Shown here piece after piece: positions 423-13,113 of a DNA stretch of 20,167 nt. The position numbers and the translations under genes were made by a program. Numbering within the stretch: position 1 is the first letter of the stretch; each line of letters begins with the position of its first letter. The notes under the pieces are model-generated. The model did not search any database. It was not told the DNA's origin and saw only the letters and a program-made list of their open reading frames with translations. The stretch lies in IMG/VR virus record IMGVR_UViG_3300007345_000403, positions 1 through 20,167 of that record. One strand, given 5' to 3'. The DNA is from a virus.

Positions 423-556
423 TGGCTATAAATCGTGGAAGTATTCGGCAACAAATTACAAAACCAGGATTGACAAAACGATTGACCAAGACTTCTGGAA
501 AGAAGAATGGGAAAAAGAAATTAAAGGTTTCTACACCAAACAATAGGTTATACTAA
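422..556 (+). CDS. 44-aa basic protein ending in NNRLY, function unknown
   Basis: This short frame is linked by TAATG overlaps at both ends (420-424 and 554-558) and fits exactly between its neighbours. It encodes 44 residues starting MAINRGSIRQQITK, with a central run rich in Lys, Thr and Gly, and ends NNRLY. That ending matches the ending of the preceding gene and the beginning of that gene's protein. No Cys, no membrane segment and almost no acidic residues are present. A competing 95-codon frame (259-546) overlaps both genes but lacks the coupled start and the shared ending. It may be a small nucleic-acid-binding or capsid-associated protein. Function is unknown. Confidence 0.7.
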   Translation: MAINRGSIRQQITKPGLTKRLTKTSGKKNGKKKLKVSTPNNRLY

Positions 557-1227
557 TGGCTACTTCAGGTACATTTAATTTTTCTATGGATATAGATGAA
601 ATTATCCAAGAAGCTTTGGAAATGATTGGGGGTGAAGAAACTCTTGGTCACGAGCCTAAGTCTGCTCGGCGTTCCATTAACTTGCTTCTTCAGGATTGGC
701 AGAACCGTGGTGTTATGCTATGGACTGCTAATACATCTGCAGTAACGCTTACAACAAGTGTTACTACATTTACTCTTGCATCTGCAACTATTGATGTGCT
801 TGAAGCTGTACATAATCGTAGCAATACTGATATTCAACTTGAACGTATTTCTATGCAGGAGTATTTAAAAATTCCTAATAAAGGTCAGACAGGACGTACT
901 ACACAGTATGCTGTTAGACATGAACGTGGCGCACCTGTAGTACATCTTTGGCCTATTCCTTCTAATTCAACAGACCAAATTAAATTAGAACTTGTACGTT
1001 ATATGGAAGATGTAGATAAGTCTGCTTTTCAAAATGCAGATATTTCTCGTAGATTTATACCATGTCTTACTGCAGGTCTTGCGTATCAAATGTCTATGAA
1101 ACGTCCCGGCGTAGAAGGTGGTCGCATTCAAATGATTAAACAAGAATATGAAGAAAGACTAGGACGTGCTATGGAAGAAGATAGAGAACGTGTAAGTATT
1201 TTCTTTAAACCAAAGGTTAATATTTAA
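556..1227 (+). CDS. P22 gp4-like head-tail adaptor
   Basis: This 223-aa protein resembles the head-tail adaptor of P22-type podoviruses (gp4), which docks under the portal and closes the head after packaging. The N-terminus has the expected helical segment (MDIDEIIQEALEMIG, about residues 11-25). It is followed by ARRSINLLLQDWQNRG (37-52), a pattern I associate with this adaptor group in marine phages. A beta-rich middle and a long charged C-terminal helix (about 183-215) complete the fold. P22 gp4 is 166 aa, so this is a longer version. The start is fixed by a TAATG overlap. It lies about 9.7 kb upstream of the gp10-like hub, although the two are close in P22. Confidence 0.7.
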   Translation: MATSGTFNFSMDIDEIIQEALEMIGGEETLGHEPKSARRSINLLLQDWQNRGVMLWTANTSAVTLTTSVTTFTLASATIDVLEAVHNRSNTDIQLERISMQEYLKIPNKGQTGRTTQYAVRHERGAPVVHLWPIPSNSTDQIKLELVRYMEDVDKSAFQNADISRRFIPCLTAGLAYQMSMKRPGVEGGRIQMIKQEYEERLGRAMEEDRERVSIFFKPKVNI

Positions 1228-1490
1228 TGGCAAGTGGTAAGTATGCTTTTGGCATATGTGATATATGTGGGTTTAGATATAAGTTAAAAGAGTTAAAAAA
1301 GAATAGCTATGGCATGATGGTATGTCCATTAGACTACGATGGTAAGTATGATTTACAAAGCCATCCTCAAAATAAAACACCTAAGATATCAGATGATATA
1401 TCTATTAAAGACCCTCGTCCACGTTCACCTATGCCACCTACAAATGTAACAGTAACAGATTGGTTACCACCTTACCCACCGGGAGTATAA
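1227..1490 (+). CDS. small zinc-ribbon-like protein, copy 1
   Basis: This 87-aa protein has Cys11-x2-Cys14, Cys33 and His46 in the pattern CDICGF...VCPLDY...SHPQNK. Similar small proteins are common in phage virion gene clusters, where I recall two CxxC pairs. Here the fourth Cys is replaced by Asp36, so a metal site would need His46 or Asp36. The tail (residues 63-87) is proline-rich. The start overlaps the adaptor stop (TAATG). The next gene is a clear paralog with all four residues at identical positions. It is probably a minor virion or assembly factor; metal binding is inferred. Confidence 0.7.
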   Translation: MASGKYAFGICDICGFRYKLKELKKNSYGMMVCPLDYDGKYDLQSHPQNKTPKISDDISIKDPRPRSPMPPTNVTVTDWLPPYPPGV

Positions 1491-1491
1491 A

Positions 1492-1803
1492 ATGGCTAGA
1501 GGTAAAAATGTAATCCAAGAATGTCAAATCTGTGGGTTTGAATTTAGACGTTCTTTGATGCGTTTAAACTCTAGTGGTCTACTTGTTTGTCCTGAAGATT
1601 ACGAAGGTTCTTATGATTATAAAAGTCACCCACAAAATAAATCACCCGATACTCGTAAAGAACAACCTTGGGTTATAAATGCAAGACCAGAAGATACATC
1701 ATTTAATTCTTCTGGTGGTGGTGGTGGCGGTAGAAATATTGTTTGGAACACTGCCATAGTAAACTATAATAATATTACTACTCTTTATTGGAATAATATA
1801 TAA
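1492..1803 (+). CDS. small zinc-ribbon-like protein, copy 2
   Basis: This 103-aa protein is a tandem paralog of the gene before it. Cys11, Cys14, Cys33 and His46 fall at exactly the same residue numbers, and the pattern GxxVCPxDYxGxYDxxSHPQNK is shared. The C-terminal half differs completely: it has a run of six glycines (about residues 75-80) and then a hydrophobic, asparagine/tyrosine-rich end. GGGAG-type spacing (GGGAG at 1481-1485) gives a good ribosome site six bases before the ATG. The stop overlaps the next start. Shared N-terminal domains with different tails suggest one common partner and two different outputs. Function is unknown. Confidence 0.7.
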   Translation: MARGKNVIQECQICGFEFRRSLMRLNSSGLLVCPEDYEGSYDYKSHPQNKSPDTRKEQPWVINARPEDTSFNSSGGGGGGRNIVWNTAIVNYNNITTLYWNNI

Positions 1804-4124
1804 TGGCATCATTAACTAATAAAACTATTGCTAGTACCTACAAAGATTTGCTACAAGTTAGTAATAGCAATTCAGGTGTAGATGGTACTCTTAGAAATAT
1901 TGAAGATGGCGAAGGTACTTCTTCTGCTTTACAGATTTCTCAAAGTGGTGTTAATATTGATGGTGACTTCTATATAGGTGGTAACCAGCTTACCGCAACT
2001 GTATCCGCACTAAATAATATTGCTGACCTTACTGGCACTAATGGCATTGTAGCTGTTAGTGGTGGTAATGTTTATGGGCGTTCAATCGCTGCTACAGGCC
2101 CTCTGAGCGTCACTAACGCTGATGGTACAGAAGGTAACCCAACAATTGCTTTAGTTAGCTCTGCAGTCTCTGCAGGGGCTTATGGGCCTATGTCTACATT
2201 TACTGTAGATGGGTATGGTATCATTACTGATGTAACTGTTGCTTCAACTATTTCTGCTAATGCTTTTATTGGTGGTACATTTGATGGTTCTAAACTTGAC
2301 ATTGAAAACAATGTTTCTATTGGTGGTACACTTATTGTATCAGGAACTTCTAATTTAAAAGAAATTAGTGCAACAGATGTTATCTTCAATACTGTTAGTG
2401 CAACATCTAATATTTATTCGCCTGTTGTAAGTACTGGTAGTCTTCATGCAGTTAGTGCAAGTATTGGTGATTTATATGCTGCCAATCTTTCATTTACAAA
2501 TGTGTCTGCAAATGCGCTTACTCTTTCTAATCTTACCGTACAAACATCTTCAAGTTTTGCTGGTGTTGCAACATTTACTGCAAGTACAACATATGATTCC
2601 AATGTAAACTTTAAAGATAATAAAACTCTTTCATTTGGTGATTCTGGTGATTTAGAAATTATTCATAATGGTGTACATTCAAATATTCGTGATATAGGAA
2701 CTGGTAATCTATTTATTCAAAGTAATGAAATTAGACTTACTAATAATGGTTCATTTTCTATGCTTACCTTGGCTGATGGTCAAGATGCAGATTTCCCATA
2801 TGGTGTTCAGGTAAGTGGCACGGTTAGTGCTACTAGTTTTGTTGGCCCAACTATTACAAGTATTACTACTGCTATTACATCTATTAATACTTACATTACT
2901 GGGGTGTCTGCAGTTTTTGCAGCAAGTATTAATAATACTAACAATGCTCTTACAGCTTTGTCAGCTACGATGGCTACATCTATTGACAACAGTAATACAA
3001 ACATTACAGCAAATGCGAATGCTATTACATCAGTCAATAGTGTTATTACTGCATTGTCTGCTACTATGGCTACAAGCATAGACAACACAAACACAAATCT
3101 TACAGCACTATCAGCAACAATGGCAACTAGTATAGCAAATACTAATGCCAATGTCACTACAAATATTAATGCAATTACATCTGTAAATTCTGTTATTGCT
3201 AATCTTTCTTCTACTCTAGCTACATCTATTGGCAACCATCTTCCTTTGGCTGGTGGTACAATGACAGGAACACTTACACTTGCAGGTGCGCCTAGTGCTA
3301 ATCTTGAAGCTGCAACTAAACAATATGTAGATAATCTGACTGCTGCAGCTATTCACTTCCATGACCCTGTTCGTGTAGAAAGTCCTGATAGTGCAGGTAA
3401 CTTGAATGCTACCTATAACAATGGCACTGCAGGTGTGGGTGCTACACTTACTAATGCAGGTACTCAGGCAGCACTTGTTATTGATGGTGTAACACTAAAT
3501 ACAAGTGACCGTGTTCTTATTTACAACCAAACTAATGGTTATGAAAATGGTGTATATACTGTAACTGATACAGGCTCTGCATCAACTAACTGGGTACTTA
3601 CTCGTGCTACAGATGCAGATAGTTATCAGCCAAATGATAATACTGGTATTGATGGTGGTTCATACTTCTATGTTCAAGAAGGCGATGACGGTGCAGGTGA
3701 GGCTTATGTATGTAGTAACATAGGTACAATTACCATTGGTACTACACCAATTACATTTGTTCAGTTTAGTTCTGCACTTGTATATACTGCAGGTAATGGT
3801 ATTAATATTAGCAGTGGTCGTGTAATATCTGTATCTGGTGTTCCTTCTTCAGCTACTATTGCTGCCTTGTCTGCAACAATGGCAACATCTATTGATAATA
3901 CTAATACTAATCTAACTGCACTATCTGCAACAATGGCTACAAGTATTGCAAATCATTTACCCCTTGCAGGTGGTACACTAACAGGTCATGTATCTGGTAC
4001 GGCTCTTACAATGTCTGGAGATGTTTCTGCTAATGCTTATTATGGTGATGGTTCTAATTTGACTGGTATTACTGCAGGAGCATCAGAAGGATTTGCTATT
4101 GCAATTGCTATTGCTTTAGGCTAA
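1803..4124 (+). CDS. large repeat-containing tail fibre protein
   Basis: This 773-aa protein is built from modules typical of marine phage fibres. Residues about 85-115 carry the IAATGPLSVTNADG...NPTIAL pattern. Residues about 268-325 carry the FGDSGDLEIIHNG type. A low-complexity stalk from about 360 to 478 has repeats of ALSATMATSI (at 385, 417 and 435, with a variant at 467). A GGTMTG motif (484-489) leads to AATKQYVDN and then a compact domain (518-658) beginning HFHDPVRVE and ending FVQFS. Two more ALSATMATSI copies (688, 706) and a second LPLAGGTLTG (719-728) follow. The end is hydrophobic (GFAIAIAIALG). It likely trimerises as a long adhesin. The start overlaps the preceding stop (TAATG). 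Confidence 0.75.
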   Translation: MASLTNKTIASTYKDLLQVSNSNSGVDGTLRNIEDGEGTSSALQISQSGVNIDGDFYIGGNQLTATVSALNNIADLTGTNGIVAVSGGNVYGRSIAATGPLSVTNADGTEGNPTIALVSSAVSAGAYGPMSTFTVDGYGIITDVTVASTISANAFIGGTFDGSKLDIENNVSIGGTLIVSGTSNLKEISATDVIFNTVSATSNIYSPVVSTGSLHAVSASIGDLYAANLSFTNVSANALTLSNLTVQTSSSFAGVATFTASTTYDSNVNFKDNKTLSFGDSGDLEIIHNGVHSNIRDIGTGNLFIQSNEIRLTNNGSFSMLTLADGQDADFPYGVQVSGTVSATSFVGPTITSITTAITSINTYITGVSAVFAASINNTNNALTALSATMATSIDNSNTNITANANAITSVNSVITALSATMATSIDNTNTNLTALSATMATSIANTNANVTTNINAITSVNSVIANLSSTLATSIGNHLPLAGGTMTGTLTLAGAPSANLEAATKQYVDNLTAAAIHFHDPVRVESPDSAGNLNATYNNGTAGVGATLTNAGTQAALVIDGVTLNTSDRVLIYNQTNGYENGVYTVTDTGSASTNWVLTRATDADSYQPNDNTGIDGGSYFYVQEGDDGAGEAYVCSNIGTITIGTTPITFVQFSSALVYTAGNGINISSGRVISVSGVPSSATIAALSATMATSIDNTNTNLTALSATMATSIANHLPLAGGTLTGHVSGTALTMSGDVSANAYYGDGSNLTGITAGASEGFAIAIAIALG

Positions 4125-4139
4125 TATTTAATGTATAAT
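4111..4139 (+). promoter_or_regulatory. possible sigma70-type promoter in the fibre/virion-protein gap
   Basis: A perfect TATAAT (4134-4139) lies 17 bases after TTGCTT (4111-4116), in and just before the only sizeable gap (4125-4166) in the first 9.5 kb. The -35 matches the consensus at three of six positions, and AT-rich DNA throws up such matches often. It would drive the small virion protein and the adhesin genes after it. Confidence 0.3.
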
Positions 4140-4166
4140 TACATAATTGAAATATAGGAAGATAAT

Positions 4167-4502
4167 ATGGCTAACGCATTTAAATCTGTAACAGCACAAA
4201 ACGTAGGAACCGTACAGGTATCTGTGTACGAATGTCCTGTAGCTACGTCTACAACAATGATTGGAATGACTATTGCTAATACTGCAGCATCTCAAATTCT
4301 TGTAGATGTTCAGATGAAAGATGCAAGTAATAGCGACACACAAATCTATTTGGTAAAGGACGCACCTATTCCAGTTGGGAGTTCTCTTGTTGTTCTTGGG
4401 GGTGACCAAAAGGTAGTCTTTGAAGTTTCAGATAGTATGAATATTACAAGTGACACAACAACAAGCGCAGATGTAGTATTGAGTTTCTTGGAGATTGCAT
4501 AA
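4167..4502 (+). CDS. small beta-rich virion protein
   Basis: This 111-aa protein starts MANAFKSVTAQNVGT and contains KDAPIPVGSSLVVLGGDQKV (about residues 64-83). I recognise the pattern from small virion proteins of marine phages that sit among fibre genes. Alternating hydrophobic residues, few helix formers and the ending SADVVLSFLEIA suggest a beta-sandwich. An AGGAAG ribosome site (4156-4161) lies five bases before the ATG, and the gene follows a 42-base gap with a promoter-like sequence. The stop overlaps the next start. It could be a collar, decoration or fibre-connecting subunit; the exact role is not shown. Confidence 0.6.
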   Translation: MANAFKSVTAQNVGTVQVSVYECPVATSTTMIGMTIANTAASQILVDVQMKDASNSDTQIYLVKDAPIPVGSSLVVLGGDQKVVFEVSDSMNITSDTTTSADVVLSFLEIA

Positions 4503-5869
4503 TGCCTTATATGGGTAATCAACCTGCAACTTCTTTTTCTTCTGTATCCTATCAAGACTTAACTGGTAGTAATGGTACGTCCTTTACTCTTGACTATCCT
4601 GTAGGTAATGCACAAGAAATTGAAGTATTTGTAAATAATGTTCGTCAAGAACCGGGGGTAGCATATACTGCTAACGGTACAGAACTTATTACTACTGGTA
4701 CTATTTCTATCTCAGATGACTTCTATGTTGTATTCCAAGGTAAAGCACAACAAAGCGCAACACATCCTGCAAATCAAGACCTCAATGCAAATAATGGTAT
4801 ATTTACTGGTACAGTTACTGCTAATTCTTTTATTGGAATTCCAAACCCTTCGCTTATAATCAATGGGGCTTGTTCTATTGCACAGCGTGGCACGAGCGGC
4901 ACGGGCGGCGACTATCAGTCAGTAGATAGATTTGGAGTTACATTTGGCACTGTGGCAATTACCCAATCACAAGACACAGACGTGCCATCAAATCAAGGCT
5001 TTAGTAACAGCTTCAAGATAGAATGTACTACGGCATCTTCTTCAACTGCGGCATATGTTGCGTTATATCAAAAGATTGAAGCGCAAGACGTAAGAAATAG
5101 TGGTTGGGATTACACATCATCTAGCAGTTATTTGAGCATTTCATTCTGGGCGAAGGCGTCTGTTGCTGGGACGTATTTGTGGTCTGTTCGCACGAATGAT
5201 GGCACTGCTTACAATTACGCTGACAGCTATACATTGGCGGCTAACACTTGGACAAAGATTACAGGCACAATACCGGGCAACTCTAATATAAGCTTTGATA
5301 ATGATAACGGTGAAGGCCTTGCTGTTTACCCAATGCTTGAACTTGGCTCTGATTATACATCAGGGTCATCATTTAAAACTTGGACAGCGCACACTGGAAC
5401 AACCCAGTCGCCAGACGTTACTGTTAATTTCTTTGATACGCTTAACGCCACGTTCAAGATTACAGGATTAAAAGTTGAAGTAGGCGAGACTGCGACTGAC
5501 TTTATTCACGAAGATATTGGTACCACGCTTATAAAGTGTCAACGATATTGTAGAGTTTATTATGGTGATAATAACTATTCACAAATGGGCGGTACTGGCT
5601 TTGCTGCTAACGGAACTACTGTAAATATACCTGTATTACTAAATCCACAAATGAGAGCTACGCCAAGCTTATCAGCGTCAGGTAATAGTCAGCTTAGTGA
5701 TGGTGCTGCTGGAACTATAATAAGTGGAATAAGTGTAATTACACAACAAAGCAGTAGAGATGTATTATCAGTTGCACCAACTGCTACTGGACTGACGCAA
5801 CACAGACCTTATAGATTAGAATCAGCAAATAACACAACTGCAAGAATAACTATTAGTGCGGAGTTATAA
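4502..5869 (+). CDS. tail fibre with carbohydrate-binding-like module
   Basis: This 455-aa protein has an N-terminal domain (about 1-82) with the EIEVFVNNVRQEPGVAY pattern of fibre attachment domains. A short linker contains GIFTGTVTANSFIG (99-112). A large beta-sandwich-like module (about 117-345) runs from NGACSIAQRG to ITGLKVEVGE (320-329) and CQRY (346). That last arrangement is a frequent signature of marine phage spikes and resembles carbohydrate-binding modules. A separate C-terminal tip (about 350-455) follows. The DNA of the middle module is visibly richer in GGC/ACG/AGC codons than the ends (hand count 34 of 60 G+C at 4881-4940), suggesting module exchange. The TAATG overlap fixes the start. 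Confidence 0.75.
   Translation: MPYMGNQPATSFSSVSYQDLTGSNGTSFTLDYPVGNAQEIEVFVNNVRQEPGVAYTANGTELITTGTISISDDFYVVFQGKAQQSATHPANQDLNANNGIFTGTVTANSFIGIPNPSLIINGACSIAQRGTSGTGGDYQSVDRFGVTFGTVAITQSQDTDVPSNQGFSNSFKIECTTASSSTAAYVALYQKIEAQDVRNSGWDYTSSSSYLSISFWAKASVAGTYLWSVRTNDGTAYNYADSYTLAANTWTKITGTIPGNSNISFDNDNGEGLAVYPMLELGSDYTSGSSFKTWTAHTGTTQSPDVTVNFFDTLNATFKITGLKVEVGETATDFIHEDIGTTLIKCQRYCRVYYGDNNYSQMGGTGFAANGTTVNIPVLLNPQMRATPSLSASGNSQLSDGAAGTIISGISVITQQSSRDVLSVAPTATGLTQHRPYRLESANNTTARITISAEL
5860..5863 (+). promoter_or_regulatory. ribosome binding site deciding the 5871 start
   Basis: GGAG seven bases before the ATG at 5871 favours that start over the in-frame GTG at 5856, which lies upstream of this site and inside the preceding gene. 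Confidence 0.6.
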
Positions 5870-5870
5870 G

Positions 5871-6050
5871 ATGACAAAAACTATAACAAATGCAAAATAT
5901 ACAGTTGATGTAAATGGAGATAATGCATCAATAAATGCAATAATTAATGGTGTTTTAACATCAGTTCCGCTTGACCCTGCTAATTCAGATTATGCAGAAA
6001 TTTTAAAACAAGTTCAAGCTGATACACTAACTATTGAGGATGCAGATTAA
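5871..6050 (+). CDS. 59-aa fibre-associated accessory protein
   Basis: This 59-aa protein has a beta-rich start (KYTVDVNGDNASINAIINGV) and the ending VPLDPANSDYAEILKQVQ...LTIEDAD. The 'DPAN..Y.EI..QV' tail is frequent in small proteins encoded beside phage fibre genes, where they are thought to help fibre assembly. The ATG follows the preceding stop by one base and has GGAG at the right distance. The stop overlaps the next start (TAATG). The acidic C-terminal helix could contact the fibre made from the gene before or after it. The chaperone role is inferred from neighbours. Confidence 0.65.
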   Translation: MTKTITNAKYTVDVNGDNASINAIINGVLTSVPLDPANSDYAEILKQVQADTLTIEDAD

Positions 6051-6565
6051 TGGCACTTAGTAAAATTAAAACAGGTAGTATAGAAGATACTATTGACCTT
6101 ACTGCAAACGATGGTACATTTACTGGAAATATTACAGCAACAACTGGTATTGGTGTTATTCAAGTAACATCTACGCAAGTTACAGCAACAGGTTCTTTTA
6201 CTACAGCATCTACATCATATGTTACTGACAGTACGATGCCAACTTTAAATATTACACCAAGTTCTGCATCCAGTAAAATTATGATTATATTTCGTATTGG
6301 TATGCAACATGATGCAAGTGGACAAATTGAAAATACTATTTATAGGAACAGCACAACTGATTTATCTAATGGCAATACTTACGGCTTGTCTTTTAGCGGC
6401 GGCGCACAACCCGGTTGGTTTAATAATACGATTACGTGGGTTGATGCTCCTACTACTGTAGGTGAGGTAAGATATACTTGGTATAGCCGTGCTGAATCTC
6501 CTGTAGATATTACACCTGTTCATCCCGGCACTACTTGGAGTGCTATTTTGATGGAGTTACCATAA
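6050..6565 (+). CDS. small tail fibre / adhesin protein
   Basis: This 171-aa protein starts MALSKIKTGSI, a common beginning of small marine phage fibre proteins. NDGTFTGNITATTG (20-33) echoes the GIFTGTVTA linker of the 455-aa fibre. Residues about 38-171 form a beta-rich head with SSASSKIMIIFRIG (about 72-85) and NTIYRNSTTDLSNG, a pattern seen in small trimeric phage heads. No enzyme motif is visible. The start overlaps the stop of the 59-aa gene, and the stop overlaps the start of the C1q-type gene, so all three are probably made together. Its receptor is unknown. Confidence 0.65.
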   Translation: MALSKIKTGSIEDTIDLTANDGTFTGNITATTGIGVIQVTSTQVTATGSFTTASTSYVTDSTMPTLNITPSSASSKIMIIFRIGMQHDASGQIENTIYRNSTTDLSNGNTYGLSFSGGAQPGWFNNTITWVDAPTTVGEVRYTWYSRAESPVDITPVHPGTTWSAILMELP

Positions 6566-7047
6566 TGACTGAAGCAAGAGACTTGGCAGATGTGCCTAAT
6601 GGTTTGACTGTAAATAGTAGTGGATATGTTTTAACTTCATTAAGACCAGCTTTTAACGCAAGTAGAACATCAAGCCAAGCAGTAAACAATTCAACAATTG
6701 TTTTTGACCAAGTTTCATTAAATGTTGGAAATCATTATAATAATACTACAGGTCAATTTACTGCGCCTGTTGCTGGTGTTTATCAATTTAGTTTTGAATG
6801 TGTGGGTGGGGCTTCCCTTGGTGGACATGATTATTTTGCAAAAGTTAATGGTGTAACAAACCAACAATTAATTTCAGTAAGACCGCCTTCTGTTAATAAT
6901 ACTGACACACTTGCTTCTAAAACTGCAAGTACCGGGTTAATATCTTTGAGTGCTAGTAATACTGTTGAAGTTTTTTCTCCACAAAATTTAACTGTATATA
7001 GTGATGGAAATAGTTGGTTAAAATTTTCAGGATATTTAATAGGATAA
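6565..7047 (+). CDS. C1q-domain virion protein
   Basis: This 160-aa protein has a short N-terminal tag (TEARDLADVPNGLTV) and a C1q/TNF-like jelly-roll domain (about 27-160). The hallmarks are RPAFNASRTSSQ (27-38), TIVFDQVSLNVGNHYN (44-59), TGQFTAPVAGVYQFSF (62-77) and a C-terminal WLKFSGYLIG. C1q heads form compact trimers and often bind surface ligands, so this is a likely receptor-binding head. An in-frame ATG at 6535 would add ten residues from inside the preceding gene. The ATG at 6565 is preferred because it forms the TAATG overlap and begins with the ARDLAD tag, which the tail-collar protein downstream also carries. Confidence 0.8.
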   Translation: MTEARDLADVPNGLTVNSSGYVLTSLRPAFNASRTSSQAVNNSTIVFDQVSLNVGNHYNNTTGQFTAPVAGVYQFSFECVGGASLGGHDYFAKVNGVTNQQLISVRPPSVNNTDTLASKTASTGLISLSASNTVEVFSPQNLTVYSDGNSWLKFSGYLIG

Positions 7048-7050
7048 CAT

Positions 7051-8424
7051 ATGGCATATATAGGAAAATCACCACAGGGTTCAGGAGTTAGAACTCGTTA
7101 CTATTACACTGCAACAGGTGGAGAAACATCTATCAGTGGTGCAGATGATAATGGTAGAACTCTTACATTTACTGATGGTGAATATGTAGACGTATACCTG
7201 AATGGTATTTTGCTTGTGGCTGGTACTGACTATGGTACTGGTACTACAAATACTATTAATGGATTAACTGCTTTAAATGCAAGTGATATTGTAGAAATTG
7301 TTGTATATGATATTTACTCTGTAGCTAAGATAAACTCAGAAGCAATCAGGTATCGTTATTATAAAACTGCTTCTGGTGGTGAAACATCTATTAGTGGTGC
7401 AGATGATAGTGGTGCAACAATTACTTTCCCAGCTAATGCAGAGATTGATGTTCGTGTAAATGGTGTGTCACTTGTTCAAGGCACAGACTATAATACAACA
7501 ACTGCTAATACTGTTGGTGGCTTGACAGCATTGACTGCAGGACAGGTTGTTGAGATTGTTTACTTTAGTTCGTTTCTTTTATCTGACACAGTAAGTAAAG
7601 CTTCTGGTGGAACCTTTGGTGGAAATGTGGCTATGAATGGCGACCTCACCGTAGACACTAACACCCTTTACGTTGACAGCACGAACAATCGGGTTGGCAT
7701 TGGGACGACTTCGCCCAGTTATAAAATGTCTCTGGAAGATAGCAGCAACTTTGCCATTCACCTGCTAAAGACAGGCAGCAACGACGGTTGGGTCAGAAAC
7801 ATTGGCACGATGGACATAGCTGCCGCATCTGGCGGCGGTGGCGGTCAAGTAATTACATTCAGCACTGGTGCAAATTACGCTGGTTTGGCAGAGCGTATGC
7901 GTGTGGATGGGGTCGGAAAATTGCTTATCAACAGAACTACGGCATTATCAAATGGTTATTTAGCAATCAATGGCGGTGCTGCTGAAGCAATGTCAATTCA
8001 AGGCGGCAGTAATGACTATATTGTTTCTTGGCACAACACTAGCGGTACACTTATAGGTTCAATTACTGGTTCTTCAGGTTCTTCAACATCCTACAACACA
8101 ACATCCGATTACCGCCTAAAGACCGCAGTCACTTACGATTGGGATGCCATCACACGCCTAAAGCAGTTACGTCCTGCAAGGTTTGAGTGGATTGTTGATG
8201 GTGATGACGCTGTTCCTGTCGATGGTTTCCTTGCACACGAACTTGCAACAGTCATCCCTGAAAGTGTCACCGGCACACATAATGAGGTAGATGATGAGGG
8301 CAACCCTGTGTACCAAGGCGTTGACCAGAGTAAGCTAACCCCATTGCTTACCAAGGCACTGATTGAGGCGGTTGAAAAGATTGAACAACTAGAGACCCGC
8401 ATTGCGGCACTGGAGAATGTGTAA
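7051..8424 (+). CDS. tail fibre with peptidase S74 self-cleaving chaperone
   Basis: This 457-aa protein has two tandem N-terminal domains (about 15-90 and 100-175) that share GGETSISGADD. They are followed by a stalk with the RVGIGTTSP pattern and a C-terminal intramolecular chaperone of the S74 family (about 352-457). The cleavage site is clear: Ser352 begins SDYRLK, with Lys357 five residues on, as in the Ser/Lys pair of endosialidase-type chaperones. The end is a coiled coil (EAVEKIEQLETRIAALE). The chaperone would fold the trimer and then cut itself off before Ser352. AGGA (7041-7044) lies six bases before the ATG. The DNA from about 7610 to the end is richer in G+C (30 of 60 by hand at 7621-7680). 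Confidence 0.85.
   Translation: MAYIGKSPQGSGVRTRYYYTATGGETSISGADDNGRTLTFTDGEYVDVYLNGILLVAGTDYGTGTTNTINGLTALNASDIVEIVVYDIYSVAKINSEAIRYRYYKTASGGETSISGADDSGATITFPANAEIDVRVNGVSLVQGTDYNTTTANTVGGLTALTAGQVVEIVYFSSFLLSDTVSKASGGTFGGNVAMNGDLTVDTNTLYVDSTNNRVGIGTTSPSYKMSLEDSSNFAIHLLKTGSNDGWVRNIGTMDIAAASGGGGGQVITFSTGANYAGLAERMRVDGVGKLLINRTTALSNGYLAINGGAAEAMSIQGGSNDYIVSWHNTSGTLIGSITGSSGSSTSYNTTSDYRLKTAVTYDWDAITRLKQLRPARFEWIVDGDDAVPVDGFLAHELATVIPESVTGTHNEVDDEGNPVYQGVDQSKLTPLLTKALIEAVEKIEQLETRIAALENV
7123..7413 (+). repeat. near-identical 33-base direct repeat inside the S74 fibre
   Basis: Bases 7123-7155 and 7381-7413 differ at only two positions by eye. They encode ETSISGADD-x-G in the two N-terminal domains of the S74 fibre. 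The surrounding domain copies are much more diverged, which points to a constrained surface or local gene conversion. Confidence 0.7.
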
Positions 8425-9014
8425 TGAGTAGGGCAAGAGACATAGCAAACAGCGTAGGCGGTGGTAGCCTTGTATCAGTAGGAACTATTTTTCCTTTTGG
8501 TAATGGTACGCTTCCAACAGGTTATTTAGCCTGTGATGGTTCTGCTGTTTCTCGTACAACTTACTCAGATTTATTTGGAGTTATTGGAACTGACTATGGT
8601 GTGGGAGATGGGTCTACTACATTTAATGTTCCTGATTTACAAGACAAAGTTCCAGTAGGTTCTAGTGGTACAAAAGCTATTGCTTCTACTGGTGGTAGTG
8701 CAACACAAACCCCAACTGGTACAATAACTGTAAACAACCACACACTATCTACTAGCGAAATACCTGCTCACGGACACAGTATTACTGCAAATGCTTTTGC
8801 AGGTAATCTTGGATTAGTTCAGTGTCCTGTTGGTGGTGATGGTAACAAGTATGGTACTGGGGATGATGCCAGAGATGCCTCTTCTGAAACTGCAAGATAT
8901 GTTGCAAACAATACAGGTAGCGGTGGCGCACATAATCACGGCGGTTCATTTAGCGGTAGTTCAATGAGTGTTGAACAACCATATGTCGCTATGAAATTTA
9001 TGATAAAACACTAA
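8424..9014 (+). CDS. phage tail-collar domain protein (short fibre), copy 1
   Basis: This 196-aa protein starts with a tag (MSRARDIANSVGG) like that of the C1q protein. A tail-collar domain (about 19-79) follows: GTIFPFGNGTLPTGYLACDG, TTYSDLFGVIGTDYGVGDG, FNVPDLQDKVPVG. The C-terminal part has His-x-His pairs at HGH (116-118) and HNH (170-172) and ends EQPYVAMKFMIKH, as in collar fibres where such histidines can bind metal inside the trimer (known for T4 fibres). TAATG overlaps the S74 fibre stop. It is probably a short fibre or tip. A related collar protein lies at 9942-10958. Confidence 0.8.
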   Translation: MSRARDIANSVGGGSLVSVGTIFPFGNGTLPTGYLACDGSAVSRTTYSDLFGVIGTDYGVGDGSTTFNVPDLQDKVPVGSSGTKAIASTGGSATQTPTGTITVNNHTLSTSEIPAHGHSITANAFAGNLGLVQCPVGGDGNKYGTGDDARDASSETARYVANNTGSGGAHNHGGSFSGSSMSVEQPYVAMKFMIKH

Positions 9015-9024
9015 AGGAAAATAA

Positions 9025-9519
9025 ATGTCATACTCAGCAATTGTACCAGATAAAATGTTAGCCAGTAATAATGTAGGCGTTAAATGTGAAGACGATTCTT
9101 TCTGGAATCAATTTACAAACATACACGCTATTCAGGTAGATGTTAATAATTCTTCATGGGTAGAGATGTCTGATGGAACATCTCGTGATGCAACTGAAGA
9201 AGAAAAGACTGCAGTAATAAATAAATTTAATGAAATTAATAATGCCATTATTGAAGCAGAACGTCAGAAAGAATTTGATTGGGATAACTCTTGGGATAGG
9301 GTTCGTAGAACAAGAACAATTCTTTTACAAGAAACAGATAAATATCTTGTTGCAGACTTTCCAATTACACCTGAAAAGCGTACTGAATGGGAAACATATA
9401 GAACTGCCCTTCGTAATATTCCTATTACTTACGCAGATGAACAGCCTATAAACATTACATTTGATGGTCCGGGGAACGTATATGTTAGCGGAACAAAAGT
9501 CATTGCAGTACCAAGTTAA
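9025..9519 (+). CDS. tail assembly chaperone-like protein
   Basis: This 164-aa protein has a central helix (about 56-84) and the block RRTRTILLQETDKYL (94-108) ... EWETYRTALRNIP (121-133). This is the pattern of phage tail assembly chaperones (R..R...L..TD...D.P...W..YR.ALR.IP). AAGGA (9014-9018) lies six bases before the ATG. It directly follows the collar protein, where fibre chaperones commonly sit. In the same frame after its stop lies a damaged sequence (9556-9726) that looks like part of another fibre-associated protein, so this gene may once have had a partner downstream. Confidence 0.7.
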   Translation: MSYSAIVPDKMLASNNVGVKCEDDSFWNQFTNIHAIQVDVNNSSWVEMSDGTSRDATEEEKTAVINKFNEINNAIIEAERQKEFDWDNSWDRVRRTRTILLQETDKYLVADFPITPEKRTEWETYRTALRNIPITYADEQPINITFDGPGNVYVSGTKVIAVPS

Positions 9520-9555
9520 AACACCTGACTTTCAAGGCGTACATTTGTGGGATAG

Positions 9556-9726
9556 ACAGATAAATTACCAAAAACAAGACTTTGGCGTGATGCTTGGGTT
9601 TTATCTGGAGACAAAATAGACTATAATAATAAGTTAGCAGTAAATGTTTTAAAAAAAAAATCAAAAAACCCTGTAGAAATGCAGCAACTAATTGAAATCT
9701 GGGAGCAAACAAATGGAAATGTCTAG
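9556..9726 (+). pseudogene. startless remnant of a fibre-associated gene
   Basis: An open stretch of 56 codons begins just after a TAG at 9553-9555 and ends at a TAG at 9724-9726, with no ATG, GTG or TTG before the ATG at 9676. It reads as real protein: TDKLPKTRLWRDAWVLSGDK, then a lysine-rich part, then EMQQLIEIWEQTNGNV. The 'LP..R..R.AW.LSG' block matches one I know from small phage proteins encoded beside tail chaperones. The same frame upstream has stops at 9517, 9526 and 9553, so the 5' part looks lost or mutated. Its 3' end overlaps the next gene by 14 bases, as a living gene would. A sequencing error or unusual start remains possible. Between 9520 and 9555 nothing else is recognised. 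Confidence 0.5.
9701..9705 (+). promoter_or_regulatory. ribosome binding site deciding the 9713 start
   Basis: GGGAG seven bases before the ATG at 9713 supports that start. The in-frame TTG at 9692 lies upstream of the site, and the ATG at 9719 is 13 bases away. Confidence 0.6.
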
Positions 9727-9937
9727 TTTAATTGATATGCTTATCGCGTCAATTGTTGCTGGATTTGCTTGGTGGGCTAATGGAACATCACGTGAACAAA
9801 AACGAATTGAAATTTTGTTAAATAAAACAAGAGAAGATTATGCTACTCGTATGGAAATGCGAGATGATATGCGCCGTGTTATGGAAGCACTTCACCGTGT
9901 AGAAGATAAATTAGATAAAGTTTTACAGAGGGATTAA
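9713..9937 (+). CDS. small membrane / coiled-coil protein (possible holin or spanin type)
   Basis: This 74-aa protein has one membrane segment (about 6-23, LIDMLIASIVAGFAWWAN) followed by a charged helical region (about 26-72) with heptad-like spacing, ending MRRVMEALHRVEDKLDKV. Such small proteins with a single membrane helix and a coiled coil occur in phage late regions and are often called holin-like or spanin-like. No endolysin is seen nearby in this window, so a lysis role is uncertain; tail-associated membrane protein is an alternative. There is no signal-peptide cleavage box or lipobox Cys. Its start overlaps the broken gene at 9556-9726. Confidence 0.6.
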   Translation: MEMSSLIDMLIASIVAGFAWWANGTSREQKRIEILLNKTREDYATRMEMRDDMRRVMEALHRVEDKLDKVLQRD

Positions 9938-9941
9938 ATAA

Positions 9942-10958
9942 ATGGCATCAACTTATACTTCCAGAATTAGACTAGAAAAACAAGCAGATGGAGAAAATCC
10001 AAACTCTTGGGGTTTGATTATGAATCAGAATGTCATTGACCTTATTGATGAGGCAGTGGCAGGATATGCAATTGTGTCTGTGTCAAGTGTACCTGTTTCA
10101 CTTACATCAAATAATGGTGCAACAGACGAGGCTAGACAAGCATCTCTTGAAATTGCTGGTGAACTTTCTGCTATTGTTACTATTACTATTCCATCTGAAG
10201 AAAAAACATATTTTATTCGTGACAACACAACTCAGATTTCAGCAACAAACTTTGCAGTTGAAATGAAAACAGCAGGTGGTACAGGTGTTCGTGTCAACAA
10301 TGGTTCAAATATCTTTGTTGCTTGTGATGGTACAGATATTTATAAACTAGAATCTGCTACTTCTGTATCTGCATTTACAGCTAATACTTTAAATGCTACG
10401 AATATCATAGTATCTGTTGTGTCTGCCACTAATATTTATGGAGATATATCTAATGCCACTGGAACAATTCCTCTTCCATCAGGTCTTGTATTCCCCTATG
10501 CTGGAACAAGCGCACCTAGTGGATATTTATTTTGTTATGGACAGCAAGTTAATAGAACTACCTATGCTAACTTATTTAGTGCTATAGGAACTACGTATGG
10601 TGTTGGAGATGGCTCAACTACTTTTAATTTACCAGACCTTCGGGGGCGTGTAGTTGCTGGTAAAGATGATATGGGTGGAACAAGTGCGAACCGCCTTACT
10701 AACCAAAGCGGTGGACTTGATGGCGACACGCTGGGTGCTACTGGCGGTGGTGAGACGCATACACTTACAGTTGCTCAAATGCCATCGCATAATCACTTTA
10801 GTGGGTGGTATGGTCCACGTCCTGCCAGTGGCACTGCTAACGAATTTTCGACATCATCAGGGGCATACCCTTCAGTTAATACAGGTTCCACTGGCGGTGA
10901 TGGAGCGCACAACAACGTACAGCCAACATCTATTCTCAACTATATTATTAAGACATAG
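9942..10958 (+). CDS. tail fibre with tail-collar domain, copy 2
   Basis: This 338-aa protein starts MASTYTSRIRLEKQADGENP followed by NSWG, the beginning of a fibre attachment domain I know from marine phages (about 1-120, including EARQASLEIAG and EEKTYFIRDNT). A short linker (about 140-178) leads to a tail-collar domain (about 179-245: GTSAPSGYLFCYGQQ, NLPDLRGRVVAGKDDMGG). The tip carries HTH and HNH and ends GAHNNVQPTSILNYIIKT. The collar resembles that of the 196-aa protein upstream, but the N-terminal half is different. The DNA near the tip is locally GC-rich (34 of 60 by hand at 10681-10740, against 21 of 60 at 10141-10200). Confidence 0.8.
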   Translation: MASTYTSRIRLEKQADGENPNSWGLIMNQNVIDLIDEAVAGYAIVSVSSVPVSLTSNNGATDEARQASLEIAGELSAIVTITIPSEEKTYFIRDNTTQISATNFAVEMKTAGGTGVRVNNGSNIFVACDGTDIYKLESATSVSAFTANTLNATNIIVSVVSATNIYGDISNATGTIPLPSGLVFPYAGTSAPSGYLFCYGQQVNRTTYANLFSAIGTTYGVGDGSTTFNLPDLRGRVVAGKDDMGGTSANRLTNQSGGLDGDTLGATGGGETHTLTVAQMPSHNHFSGWYGPRPASGTANEFSTSSGAYPSVNTGSTGGDGAHNNVQPTSILNYIIKT

Positions 10959-10966
10959 AAAATTTT

Positions 10967-12847
10967 ATGGCAACAAAGTTTACATCATTAAATTTTCTTC
11001 CCGGTTTTCACAGGGAATCTACCCAATATGCCGAAGAAGGTAAATGGTATGATGGTAATCGTGTGCGTTTTCGTGAAGGAAAACCAGAAAACTTACGTGG
11101 TTACGAAAAACATAATACAGAAAGTTTGGTAGGTATTGCTAGAGATATACTTGCGTGGGCAGATAATGATACACGTAAGCATATTATCTTAGGTACTAAT
11201 GAACAGGTATATGTAGAAAAAGACCAAACACTATATGATGTAACACCTATTGTATCTGTTGTATCCGCATCAGATATTTTTTCTACTAATGCAGGTTCTG
11301 CACTTGTTTCTGTAAATATTACAAACCACGGCGCACAAGCAGGTGACCGTATTATTATTGAGGCTGCTGCTACAGTAGGTGGTAATATTGATTTGACTAC
11401 ATCTGCCGCAGGTGGTCCTATTTTTACAATTGTAACTGCAGCAACATTAAATGATTTTACAATTCAATCTGTTATTACTGCTACAGATACTTCTGCTACC
11501 GCAGGTGGAACTGCAGTATCTGTAGCTTTTTTATTGCCTAAACAATTATCCAATAGTATTCAAGGTCTTGGTTGGGGTGCTGGTAATTATAATGCAGGTG
11601 CTTCAGTAACTGGTGGTCGTGCTTGGAATAACCCTTCTGCAACATCTGGGTTTACTTTCCGTGGCGCACAGTGGCAGTTTGATAACTGGGGTGAAGATGT
11701 ACTAGGTTTACGTAGAGGTGGTAATTTATTTTACTTTGATACAGATGTATCTATTACACCAGAGCGTATGAAAATTTTAACAAGTGCTACCAATGCACCT
11801 GTTGTTACTGTTACGGATGCGCCTTCACAATCTAATTACTTTGTTGTGTCTCCTAATGATAGACACGTTATTTGTTATGCGACTAATGAATACGCAAGTG
11901 GTAACTTTAATGCAATGCTTGTACGTTGGTCAGACCAAGAAAACTTTACAAACTGGACACCTTCTATTCAAACTACATCAGGTGAAGTTATTCTTGCGGA
12001 TGGTACAGAAATTGTAGGGGCTGTACGTTCTCGTAACTCTATTCACATTTGGTCTGATAATGCAATGTATACACAGCAGTTTGTTGGTCCACCTTTTATC
12101 TTTAACTTTCAACAAGTTGGTACAAACTGTGGTTTGATTGCACCCCATGCAGCAATAGACTATGATGGTATTTCATTCTGGATGGGTGACAATAACTTCT
12201 ATGCTTTTGATGGTCGTGTAAATAATTTGCCTTGTACAATACGTAGACATATCTTTGATGACTTTAATATGACTAATAAAGATAAAGTATTTGCTGGGGT
12301 TAATTCAGAATTTAAAGAAATTATTTGGTTATACCCTAGAGGAAATAGCACTGAGCCTAACGCATATGTTATATTTAATGTTGCGGAACAAACGTGGGTG
12401 TATGGTGATACCTTCTACACTACCTTTGCTGATAGAAATATATATGATAATACTTTAACAACAGGTGCAGTGTCTGCTACTGCTGGTCAGTATCTTTGGG
12501 ATAACGAACCTGCTGATTTGTATACAGGAGATGGACTACCCTTGTCTTCATATATTGAATCTGCAAAAATTGATATTGAAGATGGTACTCAAATTATGTT
12601 TATGGATAAAATTATTCCTGATTATACTTTGGGTACAGGTAATGATATTGAAATATATGTTAAAACAAATGAGTACCCTGCAAGTCCAGATATAATTAAA
12701 GGACCATTTACTATTAATAGTACTACAAAGAAAATTGATTTTAGGGCAAGAGGAAGACAAGCATCAGTTCGTGTGTCTGGTACTAATGATGGTACATGGC
12801 GTTGGGGTTCTGTGCGTGTAGGTATACAGCCGGATGGTGGTAGATAA
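10967..12847 (+). CDS. gp10-like tail hub / packaged DNA stabilisation protein
   Basis: This 626-aa protein resembles the gp10-like tail hub of P22-type phages. Landmarks are FTSLNFLPGFHRESTQYAEE (5-24) with RFREGKPENLRGY (34-46), YAFDGRVNNLPCTIRR (412-427), then an EIIWLYPRG block, and a C-terminal RGRQASVRVSGTNDG...RVGIQPDGGR. These match a conserved set I recall from marine podoviruses. P22 gp10 is 472 aa. The extra length here is partly a beta-rich, threonine/alanine-rich stretch (about 93-192) that looks like an inserted Ig-like domain. The start has no clear ribosome site (AGAAAATTTT precedes it). Its stop overlaps the next gene. It probably binds below the adaptor ring and forms the tail nozzle. 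Confidence 0.65.
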   Translation: MATKFTSLNFLPGFHRESTQYAEEGKWYDGNRVRFREGKPENLRGYEKHNTESLVGIARDILAWADNDTRKHIILGTNEQVYVEKDQTLYDVTPIVSVVSASDIFSTNAGSALVSVNITNHGAQAGDRIIIEAAATVGGNIDLTTSAAGGPIFTIVTAATLNDFTIQSVITATDTSATAGGTAVSVAFLLPKQLSNSIQGLGWGAGNYNAGASVTGGRAWNNPSATSGFTFRGAQWQFDNWGEDVLGLRRGGNLFYFDTDVSITPERMKILTSATNAPVVTVTDAPSQSNYFVVSPNDRHVICYATNEYASGNFNAMLVRWSDQENFTNWTPSIQTTSGEVILADGTEIVGAVRSRNSIHIWSDNAMYTQQFVGPPFIFNFQQVGTNCGLIAPHAAIDYDGISFWMGDNNFYAFDGRVNNLPCTIRRHIFDDFNMTNKDKVFAGVNSEFKEIIWLYPRGNSTEPNAYVIFNVAEQTWVYGDTFYTTFADRNIYDNTLTTGAVSATAGQYLWDNEPADLYTGDGLPLSSYIESAKIDIEDGTQIMFMDKIIPDYTLGTGNDIEIYVKTNEYPASPDIIKGPFTINSTTKKIDFRARGRQASVRVSGTNDGTWRWGSVRVGIQPDGGR

Positions 12848-13113
12848 TGGCTAACTATCCTAATCTTCCTAAGTATATTTATGCTACTAGTCCTCTTGAA
12901 GTATATAGAGAAGTACAGTCTTGGGCTAATCAACTGTCTCAAGAATTAGATTTAAGAGATAATAAAGTAGATAGTACACCTTCTACAAAAGTATATGCAG
13001 TTACTACAGTAGCTGATATCGGTCGTCCTAGTAGTGGAGATATAGCATATTCAAAAGATGAAGGTAAGTTTAAAGGTTATGTAAGTGGCACAGGATGGGT
13101 GGATTTTAACTAA
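12847..13113 (+). CDS. small virion protein of unknown function
   Basis: This 88-aa protein has a helical N-terminal half (about 15-45, EVYREVQSWANQLSQELDLR) and a beta-rich C-terminal half with GDIAYSKDEGKFKGYVSGTG ending WVDFN. That end pattern recurs at the tips of phage structural proteins. It is coupled by TAATG on both sides and follows the tail hub directly. In P22 the tail needle gene comes right after gp10, so a small needle or hub-closing protein is conceivable, but at 88 residues it is far shorter than the P22 needle. Function is not shown. Confidence 0.6.
   Translation: MANYPNLPKYIYATSPLEVYREVQSWANQLSQELDLRDNKVDSTPSTKVYAVTTVADIGRPSSGDIAYSKDEGKFKGYVSGTGWVDFN

Follow-up and report, generated by a model that had tools for sequence, protein, structure and literature searches.

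The IMG/VR virus record IMGVR_UViG_3300007345_000403 is a metagenomic fragment of an aquatic phage genome, and the whole record of 20,167 bases (the window) was analysed. The genes between its adaptor gene (556..1227) and its nozzle gene (10967..12847), all on the + strand, are probably best explained as an SU10-like fibre locus in which a small protein, s111 (4167..4502), forms a joint at the end of the long tail fibre and a set of exchangeable adhesin heads is mounted there by short N-terminal tags. The explanation is built on a pairing that recurs in very different phages, in which a fibre protein ending in a hydrophobic peptide of about ten residues (the tail) is followed by a homologue of s111.

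The hydrophobic fibre tail and s111

The fibre protein encoded before s111, fib773 (1803..4124), is a repeat-rich protein of 773 residues that ends in the hydrophobic peptide ...GFAIAIAIALG. Homologues of s111 were matched in 50 phage records. The gene before the s111 homologue has a short hydrophobic C-terminal peptide in 13 isolates that are very different phages; examples are HMO-2011 (...AGFAVAMAIAL), HTVC019P (...SIPFAIALG), Rhizobium phage I1_18 (...DTALALAIALG) and YerA41 (...NTLSMAIALG). The gene after s111 in the 13 isolates usually starts M-x-[YF]-[IL]-G. Across all loci there were 203 strong s111 matches (score >50 bits) with upstream DNA. The tail lies directly upstream in 201 of them, 200 fitting the pattern and one being a near miss (IAIGVALG), and in the other two the tail protein is one gene further upstream. 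The tail pattern was found in 6 of 4,236 other open reading frames (ORFs). Four of these are within s111 loci (two beside truncated s111 copies and the two one-gene-further cases) and two are membrane helices. In an independent collection of genome contigs the pair was present at both s111 matches.

Phages of T7-like, HMO-2011-type, T4-like and SU10-like kinds carry the pair, as does a Polynucleobacter chromosome. The chromosomal copy is a phage-like fibre locus (L339:4764-10318) with the tail on a 72-residue protein, followed by s111 and by xYIG, AEL-type and ARDLA proteins, the tag and head classes described below. Clustering of the tail-bearing fibre bodies gives 25 groups when cut at 50% identity and 10 when cut at E<1e-5, and the tail is kept as the body changes; it is also found on proteins of 72-81 residues in three phages. 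Tail codons vary synonymously, which indicates a constraint on the protein, and a DNA-level constraint such as translation coupling was rejected for this reason. The last residue of the tail goes with the s111 subtype: it is G with MAN-type s111 proteins (122/122) and L with MAQ-type proteins (79/79). Each of two backbones, the HMO-2011-type phages (CRP-9, HMO-2011) and the pelagiphages whose internal virion proteins are T7-like (HTVC019P, HTVC203P), shows both combinations. Phage Melnitz (L096) has two s111 genes, each behind its own AIALG-type protein. Weak s111-like proteins (45-48 bits), without the tail motif, are encoded just downstream of the nozzle in CRP-902 (L083:16279-16617) and DSL-LC04 (L082:15633-16043).

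s111 had no Pfam match and no homology to the phage adhesin gp38; only phrog families of unknown function matched, and no solved structure was found by sequence. AlphaFold predicts a single jelly roll with high confidence. By Foldseek, nucleophosmin cores, a trimeric phage cement protein and the HFTV1 turret are among the nearest solved structures, and several annotated virion structural proteins are among the nearest predicted viral structures.

An alternative is that s111 is itself a receptor-binding tip held by the hydrophobic tail, with the downstream adhesins attached elsewhere (nozzle, short fibre or head) or to other fibres. The gp38 of phage S16 is a separate distal adhesin (PMC7289586). 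As in the gp37-gp38 arrangement of T-even phages and S16, a separate small protein at the fibre end adjoins a variable fibre gene; s111 stands behind the fibre gene as gp38 stands behind gp37, and the tail pairing is what a tip would predict. However, gp38 is the variable adhesin, whereas s111 is conserved and has a predicted jelly roll. s111 is 50-60% identical within the group while the heads are replaced, unlike a receptor-binding tip, and tagged head genes come after it in nearly all cases. We consider a tip function unlikely and a joint function the better reading.

Tagged heads and their chaperone-like genes

Tags were counted in ORFs of at least 100 residues located up to 6.5 kb downstream of s111. 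The N-terminal tags xYIG, ARDLA, xLSKI and LKVDTI occur in 412 of the 762 ORFs after s111 versus 23 of 2,311 elsewhere. Each of the five head types (S74, C1q, TNF-like, Collar and AEL-type) occurs with three or more N-termini, and three of them (Collar, S74 and TNF-like) occur on the short fibre as well.

The window encodes five such candidate adhesins behind s111. The first, fib455 (4502..5869; phrog_4492, E 1e-40), has an xYIG tag and an AEL-type C-terminal head and is followed by s64 (5871..6050), a small gene that is probably chaperone-like judging by its position after AEL-type heads; a search for a database match to s64 returned none. s171 (6050..6565) carries an xLSKI tag and a predicted TNF/C1q-like head. 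Its AlphaFold model (mean predicted local distance difference test score, 75) is disordered at the tag end and best matches the TNF-like domains of BC2L-C and Pgp3. Two related loci encode three tandem TNF-like (s171-type) heads with differing tags (L171:6873-8529 and L176:6872-8516). The c1q gene (6565..7047), which most likely starts at the ATG at 6565 rather than at 6535, encodes an ARDLA tag and a C1q domain (PF00386, E 2e-17; 64 bits against a cut-off of 23.7). s74 (7051..8424) consists of two tandem xYIG-type N-terminal domains and a C-terminal S74 chaperone domain (PF13884, 24.9 bits against a cut-off of 22), for which self-cleavage is predicted from the family. The last is an ARDLA-tagged protein with a Collar domain (8424..9014; PF07484, E 8e-21). 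It is followed by apc (9025..9519), a tail-assembly-chaperone-like protein with a Phage_tail_APC domain (PF16778, E 2.5e-11; 43.7 bits against a cut-off of 26.6) and a match to phrog_4912, tail fiber assembly; its putative chaperone role is drawn from family and position.

Head and chaperone-like genes are paired. Of 34 s64-type genes, 33 are directly behind an AEL-type head, and the s64-type gene is directly next to the head in 22 of 29 distinct AEL-type cases, with four others having no ORF before the contig end. Of the two chaperone-like genes proposed by the first-pass annotation, apc is borne out by the family match, and s64 is placed by its position behind an AEL-type head. The receptor-binding protein gp26 of the marine Alteromonas phage V22 needs the downstream-encoded chaperone gp27, which is absent from the final complex (PMC7289586). 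The arrangement of a head followed by an adjoining chaperone-like gene is similar, and V22 may serve as a model for the head-chaperone pairs in the window. Unlike these pairs, gp27-like proteins carry DUF4376, which neither s64 nor apc matches. Rhizobium phage Y65 has a DUF4376 gene behind a fibre with an AEL-type ending.

Turnover of the distal genes within an SU10-like frame

The kuravirus SU10 encodes, in order, an adaptor (gp11), proximal (gp12) and distal (gp13) long-fibre proteins, a short fibre (gp16) and a nozzle (gp17). Its long fibres, which have an elbow joint, are attached to the adaptor and its short fibres to the nozzle (PMC9509320). The window and its relatives share this gene order. 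On that basis fib773 is taken to be the proximal long fibre, colB (9942..10958) the short fibre and the intervening genes the distal long fibre. The adaptor at the upstream edge belongs to the SU10 family (PF24175 SU10_adaptor, E 2e-10, above the curated cut-off). fib773 matches tail fibre families (phrog_2647/8745) and has a conserved N-terminus. The nozzle protein at the downstream edge matches phrog_3287 (E 3e-77), and a profile of the nozzle relatives matches solved nozzle proteins (9nwi, 8zkm, 8zkk) at E 7e-13, and a 9nwi chain at E 4e-29, over about 160-190 of 611 positions. The resemblance to SU10 thus covers the adaptor family, the gene order and two kinds of fibre adjoining the adaptor and nozzle genes; the difference is that s111 and several heads replace the single distal long-fibre protein of SU10. 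An assignment of the window to an SU10-like short-tailed phage is one part of the explanation that we favour, and is held with the same fair confidence as the whole. The first-pass annotation had set the locus against P22-type phages and called the nozzle protein a tail hub. The adaptor family and the nozzle matches leave the P22 comparison without support, and Pfam and phrog searches of the window proteins gave no match to a tailspike family.

The closest isolates by adaptor and nozzle, at roughly 29-40% identity, are DSL-LC04, HTVC023P, HTVC027P and CRP-901/902. Their adaptor-nozzle interval holds tail and other genes. Because isolates and relatives fill the same interval, the region is a normal fibre locus and not, as had been proposed, an inserted cassette. 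Seven candidate fibre or adhesin genes and two chaperone-like genes in the interval are confirmed. The original gene list was right in outline; it passed over s111 and wrongly counted colB among the swappable genes. The adaptor-nozzle interval of DSL-LC04 and HTVC023P (L082, L084) includes 2OG-Fe(II) oxygenase genes.

Gene content was compared in 80 nozzle relatives and 80 adaptor relatives, of which the longest contigs reach about 52-59 kb. There are at least three alternative distal sets, termed states A, B and C, and even close relatives differ almost fully in the distal part while the frame stays. In state C a fibre ending in ...AIALG is followed by s111 and a head array; this is the arrangement of the window, L012, L014, L016, L057, L008+L316, L004+L336, L005+L298 and others. 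State A has a fibre with a different C-terminus, after which most members encode a single giant protein (807-1,574 residues) and a chaperone-like gene. The giant proteins are multi-lectin where tested, and that of L017 has Laminin_G_3, SPRY and DUF7483 domains. In state B the fibre carries its own tip. All three states keep the N-terminus of colB in front of the nozzle, which places colB, a probable short tail fibre with an exchangeable Collar head (PF07484), outside the swappable set.

The nearest state C relative with both ends is represented by L298 and L005, which were combined since their overlapping genes agree and are probably a single phage. The adaptor is 87% identical to that of the window, the nozzle 80%, the short-fibre N-terminus 72% and s111 59%. 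L298+L005 lacks counterparts of fib455, s64, s171, c1q and apc, and its match to s74 is limited to the S74 domain. Within the species the set is constant, at 99.65-99.9% nucleotide identity over the portion that each of six overlapping contigs covers. A minor variant within the species lies at 12892-12913, where the gene that follows the nozzle begins and where two same-species contigs (L002, L003) cease to align with the window. The suggestion that the adhesins are a swap-in set is upheld by these comparisons: the set is gained and lost between species and fixed only within a species.

The strong turnover of heads between species also fits a reading of the heads as alternatives or decoys, with one or two in the virion and the rest a genomic reservoir swapped in by recombination. 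Against it, the head genes have unbroken reading frames, carry tags of their own, are paired with chaperone-like genes and do not change across the six same-species contigs, and we regard a reservoir as improbable.

Alignment of fib773 to seven state A fibres ends by residue 730 of 773 (at 730 in five, and at 702 in L015 and L278), whereas alignment to the state C fibres L173 and L298 reaches the C-terminal end; the replaced part is therefore the C-terminal joint. The adaptor tree rejects a single state C clade (approximately unbiased test, p-AU 4e-6) and requires five changes for this state, of which well-supported branches force four. The nozzle tree groups state C as one clade with one change. 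The window and the state A phage L017 are 91% identical in the adaptor and 58% in the nozzle. The tree conflict and these identities indicate that the distal set and the nozzle tend to move as a block and that the adaptor side recombines. Inheritance of the tail and s111 as one recombining block without physical contact agrees with the block exchange along with the nozzle seen here and with the known variable C1q and tail-fibre islands (PMC7468147), but is very improbable because linkage alone would not retain the last ten or so residues beside a replaced body, and these are kept on the 25 body clusters and on the 72-81-residue proteins despite synonymous codon change.

Host-recognition genes, including C1q and tail fibre genes, are known variable islands in marine and cryoconite phages (PMC7468147), and a variable fibre locus is in itself an ordinary, already known kind of region. 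C1q and tail fibre genes turn over around a constant core in both cases; unlike in those islands, exchange in the present locus leaves the conserved joint, the tags and the pairing with chaperone-like genes in place.

The remaining frame genes are small. zr1 (1227..1490), a zinc-ribbon-like protein with two CxxC-like motifs recognised by reading, is a constant part of the frame kept between adaptor and fibre in relatives. zr2 (1492..1803) is its zinc-ribbon-like paralogue, and blastp finds both similar to the same relatives. Tandem copies (1227-1803) are present in most state C relatives, with one copy in states A and B. s81 (9692..9937; phrog_12220/462) has an apparent membrane segment and a coiled coil, is conserved before the short fibre and is a frame component in most relatives. 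At 3307-3804 lies the sole near-DNA match to a phage isolate, 72.8% to the tail fibre of Roseobacter phage CRP-603, which points to exchange of a fibre domain with a roseophage. Searches for defence genes, tRNA and Rfam families found none.

The proposed joint and its significance

In the proposed mechanism the N-terminus of fib773 would bind the adaptor, making fib773 the proximal half of the long tail fibre, and its last ten or so residues would dock s111, giving the fibre a joint at its end. The adhesins of the distal part (4502-9014) would attach at or beyond the joint through their xYIG, ARDLA and xLSKI tags, each head being folded by its own S74 domain or by a small downstream chaperone, and colB would be the short fibre on the nozzle. 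With joint and tags standardised, recombination could exchange heads, and another type, either one giant protein or a self-tipped fibre, could replace the entire distal set together with the nozzle. Taken together, this SU10-like locus with an s111 joint and tagged, exchangeable heads is the explanation that we think more probable than the alternatives combined. Gene content, tail-s111 pairing, recombination of heads and tags, head-chaperone pairing and tree conflict are observed. From these we infer that the tail docks physically on s111, that one fibre displays all the heads together and that the heads bind receptors. The earlier proposal of a many-part tip with mixing subunits is compatible with these data, and the shared N-terminal tags and conserved joint make it more likely.

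Several points weigh against this mechanism. The tags and the three states were defined after the data had been seen, many loci are related to each other so that the counts are not independent events, and about half of the ORFs after s111 have no recognised tag. A single-chain AlphaFold model of the fibre tail, linker and s111 (L115, with the intergenic stop as glycine) did not place the tail on s111, and the tail formed a low-confidence helix end. This model contained one copy of each part and no trimer, and we take it as speaking neither for nor against docking. Donor-strand insertion of AIAIAIALG into s111, an idea taken from the alternating small/large pattern, was absent from the single-chain model and was dropped.

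HMO-2011 and its relatives, marine phages with a P22-like coat, have a fibre ending in AIAL, an s111 homologue and then many small fibre genes that include C1q and Collar proteins; their virion backbone and adaptor differ from those of the window. The HMO-2011 annotation lists many fibre genes, and no name for the joint was found there or in the searched papers. No phage-fibre paper was found among the literature matches to 'AIALG' and none for 'MAIALG' or 'MPYIG', in a search that left most subscription papers outside, so absence is unproven. The tail-s111 pair as a general coupling, with its grammar of tags and heads, was not found described in the literature searched. We advance tentatively, at somewhat less than even confidence, the broader idea that tail and s111 are a standardised coupling across unrelated tail types, with several heads per fibre, an N-terminal tag code and head exchange between otherwise dissimilar phages.

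In abundant marine phages such as the HMO-2011-type phages and pelagiphages, the way in which many tail-fibre genes are mounted on a short tail is a largely open question, and most such genes are annotated as hypothetical. Across T7-like, SU10-like, HMO-2011-type and T4-like phages, a ten-residue tail and a protein of about 111 residues occur together almost always. A physical coupling, if there is one, would name the connector, make heads, tags and chaperones predictable and account for the movement of heads between unrelated phages. The same joint in many unrelated phages may explain how they carry and exchange several heads.

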